Source: an uncultured Rhodospirillales bacterium (lineage in GTDB: Bacteria > Pseudomonadota > Alphaproteobacteria > Azospirillales > Azospirillaceae). From it: a DNA stretch of 33,187 bases. Location of the stretch: the NCBI GenBank assembly GCA_903920145.1, contig CAIXKV010000154.1, forward strand, positions 1 through 33,187. The letters are read 5' to 3'. The position numbers and the translations under genes were made by a program. Within the stretch, counting starts at the first letter, position 1. Every line of letters starts with the position of its first letter. Below, piece after piece: positions 17,620-20,422 of the stretch. The notes beneath the pieces are model-generated. The model was given only the letters and a program-made list of their open reading frames with translations, did not search any database and had not been told where the DNA came from.

Positions 17620-18747
17620 TCAGATATAATGCTCCTGCAACGGCGGAAAGCCGTTAAAGCCGATGGAGGCGTAAGTGGTGGTGTAGGCGCCGGTGGCCAG
17701 GATTCGAAGACGGTCACCAATTTGAAGGTCCAAAGGTAGCCGGTAATCGGCCCGTTCATACAAAACATCGGCGCTGTCGCAACTCGGACCTGCCAAAATC
17801 ACCCGTTCGGTCTGGCCGGTTCGGTCGCAGTGGATCGGATATTGGATCGCCTCATCCATGGTCTCAGCCAAGCCGCCGAACTTACCCACGTCCAGGTAAA
17901 CCCAACGGCAATCATCGTTGGCGGACTTGCGGGAGATCAGCACCACTTCGCTCTCAATCACCCCGGCATTGCCCACCATGGCGCGTCCGGGCTCGACGAT
18001 GGTTTCGGGGATACGATTGCCGAAATGGGTGCGAAGCGCCTTGAAGATGGCCGAACCATACGCCTCAGCCGAGGGCACATCCTGGCGATAGCGAGTCGGA
18101 AAGCCGCCGCCAAGGTTGACCATCTTCAGCTCGACCCCCTCGGCCTCCAGATCCCGGAAAAGCTGGGCGGTGGCGGCAAGGGCGGCGTCCCATTGAGTCG
18201 GATCGCGCTGCTGGGAGCCGACATGGAATGAAACCCCAAACGGCACCAAGCCCATCCCGGTCGCCCGCAACAGCAGATCGCGAGCCATGGCTTCGTCACA
18301 GCCGAATTTACGGGACAGCGGCCACTCGGCACCGTCGCCGCTGGTGGCAATGCGGCAGAACACCCGAGAGCCCGGAGCAACGGCGGCGATCTTTTCCAAC
18401 TCGGCGATGCTGTCGAAGGCGAACAACCGAATGCCTCGGTCGTAAGCGCGGGCAATGTCCACCTGCTTTTTGATGGTATTGCCGTAGGAAATGCGTTCGG
18501 GTGAAGCCCCCGCCGCCAAGGCCATATCGATCTCTTGTACGCTCGCCGTGTCGAACGACGAGCCGAGCCGGACCAGCAATTCCAGGATATGAGGCGCCGG
18601 ATTGGCTTTGACCGCATAATAAATGCGAGCGTCCGGCAAGGCCGTAGCCAAAGCGGTATAATTTTCTTCGACAACATCCAGGTCAAGAACAAGACAGGGA
18701 GTCGCCGGTCGTCGCTCTGCAAAGAAGCGCGCGATTTTATCGTTCAT
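17620..18747 (-). CDS. Ornithine (or lysine/ornithine) decarboxylase, fold III
   Basis: 375 residues from ATG 18747 with GGAGA upstream; a longer in-frame start at 18870 would overlap the leader. It is a cytosolic PLP enzyme that makes putrescine from ornithine, the entry to polyamine synthesis. It belongs to the alanine-racemase-fold group: Lys in 'YYAVKANPAP' binds PLP, 'SFHVGSQQ' and 'NLGGGFPTRY' contact the phosphate, 'EPGRAMVGNAG' follows, and 'GPSCDSADVLYE' carries the active-site Cys and Asp from the partner subunit. Length matches bacterial eukaryotic-type ODC. Whether lysine is also accepted cannot be read. The ~350-base leader suggests post-transcriptional control. Confidence 0.93.
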   Translation of the reverse strand: MNDKIARFFAERRPATPCLVLDLDVVEENYTALATALPDARIYYAVKANPAPHILELLVRLGSSFDTASVQEIDMALAAGASPERISYGNTIKKQVDIARAYDRGIRLFAFDSIAELEKIAAVAPGSRVFCRIATSGDGAEWPLSRKFGCDEAMARDLLLRATGMGLVPFGVSFHVGSQQRDPTQWDAALAATAQLFRDLEAEGVELKMVNLGGGFPTRYRQDVPSAEAYGSAIFKALRTHFGNRIPETIVEPGRAMVGNAGVIESEVVLISRKSANDDCRWVYLDVGKFGGLAETMDEAIQYPIHCDRTGQTERVILAGPSCDSADVLYERADYRLPLDLQIGDRLRILATGAYTTTYASIGFNGFPPLQEHYI

Positions 18748-19110
18748 CCCAGGTCTCCAGGATAAAGCGGTTATGCCAAAGGATGCGAATGCGGGGGCCG
18801 TCTTACACGAACGTGCGGTTACACGTTCGCGCCCGTACTTATCGGCTCCATAGAACCGGCGGAAACGCACTTCGCCTGGTCAAATCGAGAGGCTCGACGG
18901 AACGGCGGAAACCCACCGACAACAACATGAAACATCGTAACCTCCACGTCGGTCACCCTGTGCGGGCGGCGGGCCGGGGATACGCGTTACGTCGTTGCAT
19001 AACCACTTCTCGAGCAGCTCGAGGGGCGGGCCAGCGGCACGTGCGCTTGCGCTTGCGAGTGAGCGGTAGATACGTCGAAGCGGCGGGCTTGGAAAGAGGA
19101 AAAAGACATC
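18748..19110 (-). promoter_or_regulatory. Long structured leader of ornithine decarboxylase (candidate speF-type RNA)
   Basis: About 350 bases of minus-strand leader contain stable hairpins: CTCGAG-CTG-CTCGAG around 19011-19025 and CGAACGTG-TAACCG-CACGTTCG at 18808-18829. A short ORF with a strong ribosome-binding site (18819-18935) lies within it, and the TAA stop of that ORF falls in the loop of the second hairpin. A conserved leader RNA called speF is known upstream of ornithine decarboxylase genes in alphaproteobacteria; position and size fit. I did not align it, so the identity is inference. The upstream boundary is approximate. Confidence 0.5.
18819..18935 (-). CDS. 38-codon upstream ORF in decarboxylase leader
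   Basis: ATG 18935 is preceded by GGAGG with a five-base spacer, one of the best ribosome-binding sites in the window. The 38-residue product starts MFHVVVGGFPPFRRASR and ends with TGANV. The stop codon lies in a perfect 8-bp stem loop, 72 bases before the decarboxylase start. Such an arrangement is typical of regulatory leader peptides that sense polyamines or ornithine by ribosome stalling, but no family match is claimed. It could be a chance frame. Confidence 0.4.
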   Translation of the reverse strand: MFHVVVGGFPPFRRASRFDQAKCVSAGSMEPISTGANV

Positions 19111-20328: not shown

Positions 20329-20339
20329 ATCCAACCTTT

Positions 20340-20409
20340 GGCTATGGGCCTTTGGCTATGGGCCTTTGGCTATGGGCCTTTGGCTATGGGCCTTTGGCTA
20401 TGGGCCTTT
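20340..20409. repeat. Minisatellite: five perfect copies of a 14-bp unit
   Basis: The unit GGCTATGGGCCTTT occurs five times without a single mismatch (20340-20409), preceded by a partial unit CCTTT at 20335. It sits 14 bases after the cysE stop, in the 160-bp gap before ald on the minus strand. Perfect identity implies recent or ongoing slippage; copy number is likely to vary between strains. Confidence 0.95.
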
Positions 20410-20422
20410 GGAAACCGTGACG

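Follow-up and report, generated by a model that had tools for sequence, protein, structure and literature searches.

A conserved RNA core and a frame-constrained upstream ORF before alphaproteobacterial ornithine decarboxylase genes, with possible kinship to the speF and ar45 leaders

The described systems closest to the leader reported here are the speF leader (Rfam RF00518), ar45 (RF02347) and the speFL/orf34 peptides of Escherichia and Salmonella. speF became an orphan riboswitch candidate in 2005 and is still listed as one in the cited section of PMC7266159, which credits an updated speF consensus to Greenlee 2018. For the A. tumefaciens speF leader, the cited part of Corbino 2005 (PMC1273637) reports no binding among six compounds and describes a construct spanning -400 to +3, with conserved sequence from near the transcription start. 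According to the relevant passages of PMC7717549, ar45 lies immediately before the speF leader in Bartonella and is expressed apart from it, the Bartonella speF signal continues into the gene, and S. meliloti ar45 is also expressed apart from speF and was co-precipitated with Hfq. For alphaproteobacterial leaders of the speF and ar45 kind, the portions of the literature that we draw on (PMC1273637, PMC7717549, PMC10853860, PMC5596092, PMC6386406, PMC7266159, PMC7143759, PMC7815308, PMC2245857 and PMC3766115) describe no upstream ORF (uORF), and the core reported below may be described in the updated consensus of Greenlee 2018. In Salmonella, as set out in the cited section of PMC6386406, translation of orf34, which carries DUF2618, prevents Rho termination before speF and helps to open the speF ribosome site.

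The window, which is the whole stretch of 33,187 nucleotides analysed here, contains an ornithine decarboxylase (ODC) gene whose leader lies on the minus strand, between about 19060 and 18748. The features of gene and leader are as follows.

17620..18747, minus strand: ODC gene, ATG at 18747, 375 aa, COG0019-type decarboxylase
18748..18818, minus strand: spacer from uORF stop to ODC start, including the ODC ribosome-binding site; C-rich and G-poor in 88 of 91 leaders
18805..18832, minus strand: hairpin with the uORF stop in its loop, from genus alignment and shuffle folding
18819..18935, minus strand: uORF of 38 codons plus TAA, ATG at 18935, TAA at 18821-18819
18832..18842, minus strand: ATA AGT ACG GG, the window form of AGU-AYN-NGN, AGT at 18839-18837, from frame and codon constraint across lineages
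18941..18945, minus strand: Shine-Dalgarno (SD) GGAGG of the uORF, separated from the ATG by 5 nt and conserved across the genus alignment
18976..18989, minus strand: anti-SD stretch TAACGCGTATCCCC, with complementarity to the SD and start region of the uORF, from genus RNAalifold and duplex energies
18990..19044, minus strand: conserved RNA core, from pattern match, model R1 and covariation at one helix pair

The ODC protein matched Pfam PF02784 and PF00278, with no NCBIfam family above its cut-off, and is 62.7% identical to the ODC downstream of the speF and ar45 matches at locus L127; its assignment as an ODC is based on orthology with the genes behind speF leaders. A preliminary description of this leader had reported a near-ideal GGAGG, a 38-codon uORF and a stop codon in the loop of a perfect 8-bp hairpin, all of which are present on the minus strand; the features within its leader bounds stand, and its coordinate 18748 is one base off, the ODC ATG being at 18747. 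The hairpin, CGAACGTG-TAACCG-CACGTTCG (18829-18808), has 8 perfect pairs, or 12 in the centroid fold when G-U is counted, and its stretch folds at -19.4 kcal/mol versus -13.5 +/- 2.4 when shuffled (z -2.5; 3 of 200 shuffles equally good). Two of its pairs stay paired in the genus alignment despite changes on both sides. The stability of the whole leader is ordinary for its composition (z -1.7; 5 of 100 shuffles equally good). Elsewhere in the window, at 20336-20412, about five tandem copies of a 14-base unit, CTTTGGCTATGGGC, were seen by eye upstream of an alanine-dehydrogenase-like gene.

No Rfam family, speF included, reaches its gathering score in the window, and the 601 bases around the leader gave no speF match at E<=10 and three weak matches to other families. 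An RF00518 search of the window's own genome also found none, which is weak evidence as the controls were silent too. The leader precedes a COG0019-type ODC, as speF leaders do; it falls short of the at least 37 bits set for RF00518, scores 14.4 bits (E 1.7) against ar45 RF02347 with its cut-off of 40, and lacks the closing helix and U-run (terminator) of ar45, and the uORF peptide falls outside the speFL/orf34 (DUF2618) family. The earlier suggestion that this might be the speF leader RNA fails as a match to the Rfam model and survives as kinship, a 5' core (GCACGUGCC...GCAACGACG) being common to the window leader and the leaders with both ar45 and speF. Matches to speF at E<=0.001 occurred in 4 of 142 class genomes, 3 of them above the cut-off, and GCACGTGCC and GCAACGACG sit just 5' of the speF match in all four loci inspected. 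Among 20 loci scanned, ar45 and speF were found together in L127 and L128 (the speF match of L128, which is the same place as L048, lies just below the cut-off), and at E<=0.1 the remaining 18 gave no such combination.

In the window the core consists of GCACGTGCC (19044-19036), a variable hairpin and GCAACGACG (18998-18990), and the proposed helix joins CGUGC (19041-19037) to GC-A-ACG (18998-18993). Of 385 class genomes, 57 contained the exact pattern, and a backwards-read control gave 6 matches in 5 genomes. A scan of named genomes returned at least 117 stretches; among the 80 of them listed by title are many Acetobacteraceae, together with Azospirillum, Reyranella, Magnetospirillum and other Rhodospirillales. 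Model R1, trained on 40 rows of which none was of the ar45/speF type, was positive in 46 of 289 class genomes and recovered 11 of the 12 ar45/speF-type loci outside its training set (E 2e-7 to 1e-4), missing only the speF-positive L046 with its long insert. On the window, whose locus belongs to the training set, it matched 18976-19058 with 59.1 bits. Alphaproteobacterial-type cores with ODC were also seen in metagenome bins under the labels Nitrosovibrio (record title, L209) and Candidatus Kuenenia (L238), which are probably binning errors.

Sequence comparison only partly supports the proposed core fold. One helix pair covaries, with 61 G-C, 4 A-U, 2 G-U and 0 A-C among 67 matches to a search open to all four combinations (control pattern 0), the CGUGC/GC-A-ACG helix being invariant within the training set. 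When 231 cores were reduced to 120 distinct ones, pairing within a leader exceeded pairing between leaders for the outer helix (12.32 vs 11.84 +/- 0.15; highest of 200 shuffles 12.27) and for the hairpin helix (11.39 vs 10.09 +/- 0.19; highest shuffle 10.55). A structure given by hand had 91.5% of cells paired, as high in 3 of 500 shuffles, and both partners had changed in 7 cells, as many in 1 of 500; its covariation score and its number of covarying pairs were unremarkable (reached by 76 and 104 of 500 shuffles, respectively), and RNAalifold on the core preferred other small hairpins to the proposed fold. We rejected the MQRRNAYPR frame over the core as a coding feature: its length of 15, 53, 12, 46 and 46 codons across the five genomes of the genus indicates that conservation of the core is at the RNA level. 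The compensatory A-U pair marks a subtype of the core, GCACGUACC...GUAACGACG, seen at L311 (genome G116), at L324 and L325 (G195), and at places in G215, G315 and G396.

The core is strictly associated with polyamine-synthesis genes. Among 166 pattern loci, 154 lie upstream of a polyamine-synthesis gene, 10 were too short to judge and two (L254 and L260) are chance matches, giving 154 of 156 judgeable loci; these and the leader-class counts below are of loci, not species, with some places present in two collections. The genes behind the core encode ODC, an ODC-like decarboxylase, a homospermidine-synthase-like protein and a 1,9-bis(guanidino)-5-aza-nonane synthase, the last assigned by NCBIfam NF002699 (591 bits, cut-off 500). 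The homospermidine-synthase-like protein, with domains PF16653 and PF03435, matched no NCBIfam family and is named here after homospermidine synthase. Family genus g3 is Azospirillum, with leader peptides identical to those of A. brasilense and A. agricola records (L200, L193), and one g3 genome (G016) has a core copy before ODC and a second before an ODC-like gene followed by a synthase-like gene. Of 20 further loci found by the model, 17 precede polyamine-synthesis genes and two are truncated by a contig end; at the remaining one, L311, no known polyamine gene accompanies the core within 3.8 kb, and on this account the regulon of the core may be wider than polyamine genes. Leaders of the ODC-like/homospermidine-synthase-like operons (L197, L207, L216, L274, L275, L277, L278) carry uORFs of their own of 15-17 codons, most of them ending IA*, as in MFAVRHVAMPCHRNIA*, possibly a second leader-peptide family behind the same core.

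What follows the core, its platform, differs between lineages. RNAalifold of the genus pairs TAACGCGTATCCCC with the uORF start region, and the mean anti-SD:SD duplex is stronger within a leader than across lineages (-17.5 vs -15.0 kcal/mol; the leader's own duplex was the stronger one in 69 of 87 distinct leaders, reduced from 156). Depending on the lineage, the first start codon after the core begins either a short uORF or ODC itself: classed by best-scoring SD and start, 151 leaders (L251, unmatched by the core pattern, aside) comprise 74 that open a uORF, 70 that open ODC and 7 in which the two overlap. At the platform position all 12 ar45/speF-type loci (L045-L048, L127-L130, L152, L154, L238 and L280) have GCCC...GGGC plus at least 5 T, and GGGC with even four T was found at none of the 158 loci outside that type, the window copy L120 included. 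In these homologous leaders the same core is taken to act directly on ODC, by way of a terminator-like helix in the ar45/speF type and, in the fused type, at the codon where ODC starts. Some fused leaders give ODC an N-terminal extension, which contains TRLRN or TRLRR (L133, L135, L136, L137); a TRLRN stretch occurs also in Azospirillum uORFs (L078, L096, L119). The uORF may be a split-off ODC N-terminus, or the reverse.

Within the genus and the family the uORF is retained. The window peptide, MFHVVVGGFPPFRRASRFDQAKCVSAGSMEPISTGANV, matches no Pfam family at E<=0.001, and its frame is open in all five genus genomes, the window's included (38, 38, 42, 34 and 34 codons), so that the frameshifts in close relatives by which the preliminary description proposed to refute it were not found. 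The alignment of the five genus leaders has long invariant stretches across the core and the uORF start, with the first uORF codons conserved at every base. ODC is present in 79 of 81 family genomes; leaving out 9 of these 79, we examined 70 family leaders (30 loci and 40 fetched), allowing one mismatch per core string and two in the SD-start pattern, and found both core and uORF in all 70, the uORF at 28-56 codons.

Strong constraint falls on the 3' end of the uORF, where the window has the I-S-T form (ATA AGT ACG) of the motif. For this comparison uORF starts were picked on their SD score or with the SD-start pattern of the family, independently of the motif. Non-family leaders were left out if the start was not ATG or lay over 90 nt past the core, or if the ODC match was below 50% or over 600 nt away, and the three duplicates L119-L121 were left out too. 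Identical uORF peptides were counted once, giving 92 in the longer-motif count and 91 in the spacer, codon and AGTA[TC]..G counts; the 91-leader counts and the 90-leader folding required a located ODC start. The pattern AGTA[TC]..G has 62 copies in the 91 distinct uORF leaders, one per motif-bearing leader, and all 62 lie inside the uORF and in frame, with no out-of-frame copy among the 91; the control, ODC genes, has 3 in 48,280 nt, and fused leaders have it in 3 of 70. The motif is lacking in 29 of the 91, including whole genera of the window's family. The longer motif TCNAGTAT[ACG] shares the frame of the uORF start in 55 of 55 cases, at 17 different start distances, AGTA alone is in frame 90 of 91 times, and a pattern accepting AGC besides AGT is in frame in 56 of 57. 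The middle serine codon of the motif is AGT in 63 of 66, compared with 23 of 1,072 serine codons in ODC genes, the motif lies within five residues of the stop in 63 of 66 (mostly 0-5 codons before it), and the position after the motif's serine codon is fixed as xG in 61 of 63, whether it codes for Gly, Arg, Ser, Cys or a TGA stop. The sequences thus show the end of the uORF to be preserved in frame and codon choice across many alphaproteobacteria, and this constraint, which bears on the peptide-coding potential raised in the preliminary description, reaches far beyond the genus. We also considered, and rejected, a shift of ribosomes at the motif from the uORF frame to that of ODC: the ODC frame is open back into the uORF in just 27 of 91 leaders, and the uORF frame relative to ODC is mixed (37, 32 and 22).

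We infer that the core senses polyamine status, most likely with homospermidine or putrescine as its ligand. In the proposed mechanism, sensing would take place at the 5' end of the leader; in the closed state the uORF start would be sequestered and ODC low, and in the open state the uORF would be translated, and ribosomes pausing or terminating at its AGU motif would deny Rho (or an RNase) access to the spacer and thereby permit ODC synthesis. The spacer has a C minus G of +0.129, compared with 0.016 in the uORF, 0.041 at the ODC start and 0.002 upstream, and its best 40-nt window reaches 0.29 vs 0.10 in ODC. Rho sites are C-rich and G-poor, like this spacer. Translation of the uORF should be activating for ODC, because homologous cores act on ODC directly and by analogy with Salmonella orf34 as far as the cited source describes it. 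The ribosome-mediated control put forward in the preliminary description, taken in its simple form in which a ribosome parked at the uORF stop unmasks the ODC start, finds no backing in folding: predicted accessibility of the ODC start is unchanged, at 0.304 and 0.304 (n=90). Collectively, these findings suggest that RNA control and ribosome movement jointly tune polyamine production in these bacteria.

Several other readings of the uORF end were weighed. A SpeFL-like arrest peptide, whose nascent (S/T/I)-S-(I/M/T) end would hold up the ribosome at termination when a metabolite such as ornithine or putrescine is present, the core being secondary, would account for a frame-locked motif so close to the stop in 63 of 66, for a uORF before ODC and for a rut-like spacer, and it has a gammaproteobacterial precedent in the cited sections of PMC6386406 and PMC7815308. 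However, serine is locked to AGT and the next base to xG in 61 of 63 whatever residue is coded, and an RNA- or codon-level signal therefore fits better than a peptide; with no Pfam family matching the peptide, and with fused lineages that retain the core and not the peptide, we consider this account unlikely. If instead the bases themselves are read, AGUAYNNG could be a nuclease or RNA-binding-protein signal shielded by the terminating ribosome, its frame kept only since the stop must adjoin. Conservation of AGUAY..G irrespective of residue and a stop at most 5 codons away in 63 of 66 agree with such a signal, but there is no out-of-frame copy in 91 leaders, the distances number 17, and the idea overlaps the mechanism that we favor, as translation is still needed; as a separate explanation it seems very unlikely.

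The core raises its own alternatives. It could control ODC alone, as a plain orphan riboswitch, with the uORF a by-product of an SD hidden by the platform. The first good SD-start is that of ODC itself in 70 of the 151 classified leaders, so the core can work without a uORF, and the RNA-like conservation of the first uORF codons at every base points the same way; the locking of the uORF 3' end in frame and codon does not, nor does the motif's presence in 3 of 70 fused leaders, and we find this reading distinctly unlikely. The core might also be an ar45-like sRNA that acts independently in trans and stands before ODC by chance, given that ar45 is separate from speF in Bartonella and S. meliloti and that S. 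meliloti ar45 was found with Hfq (PMC7717549, passages cited). We give this hardly any credence in view of the strict linkage of the core to polyamine genes and of the terminator-like form, present in 12 of 12 ar45/speF-type loci and 0 of 158 others, from which it follows that the window leader is without an sRNA end; moreover, an attenuated leader would likewise resemble an independent sRNA. The terminator-like form in ar45/speF loci, together with the Bartonella expression reported in those passages, suggests as the simplest reading that the ar45 sRNA is a prematurely terminated (attenuated) ODC leader.

On balance we lean slightly towards the leader-ORF reading, taken jointly with the full mechanism proposed above: the window leader would act in cis on its polyamine gene, would be distantly related to the extended speF/ar45 leader and would carry a genuine leader ORF as well. 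A bolder version, which we offer tentatively and would not expect to hold in every part, is a two-input switch in which a homospermidine aptamer gates the leader ORF, in-frame termination at AGU-AYN-NGN decides ODC, ar45 is the terminated leader, and lineages have exchanged one platform for another among the terminator, the uORF start and the ODC start. A concrete ligand is suggested by the homospermidine-synthase-like genes behind the core: homospermidine, the product of core-linked genes, is absent from the tested compounds listed in the cited part of Corbino 2005 (PMC1273637). The link to ar45, if true, would account for an sRNA family in terms of leader attenuation, and the frame- and codon-locked uORF end allows precise mutants to be defined. 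If the mechanism is right, alphaproteobacteria too would control ODC by upstream ORFs, with an unrelated signal in the peptide or in its codons.

Compared with known systems, the window leader resembles the speF leader (RF00518) in standing before the same ODC with common 5' core strings, and differs from it in having another platform after the core and a uORF with GGAGG-ATG. With ar45 (RF02347) it has the same core, whereas GCCC...GGGC plus a U-run is absent from it. Like speFL/orf34 of Escherichia and Salmonella, it places a small uORF before the ODC gene with suggested ribosome and Rho control, but we saw no likeness between the peptides, and here an RNA core precedes the uORF. The spermidine riboswitch, a SAM-I variant (PMC10853860, in the part cited), is likewise a polyamine-related RNA control; it is a different RNA, no Rfam family reaching its cut-off in the window, and the likeness lies in the kind of control.
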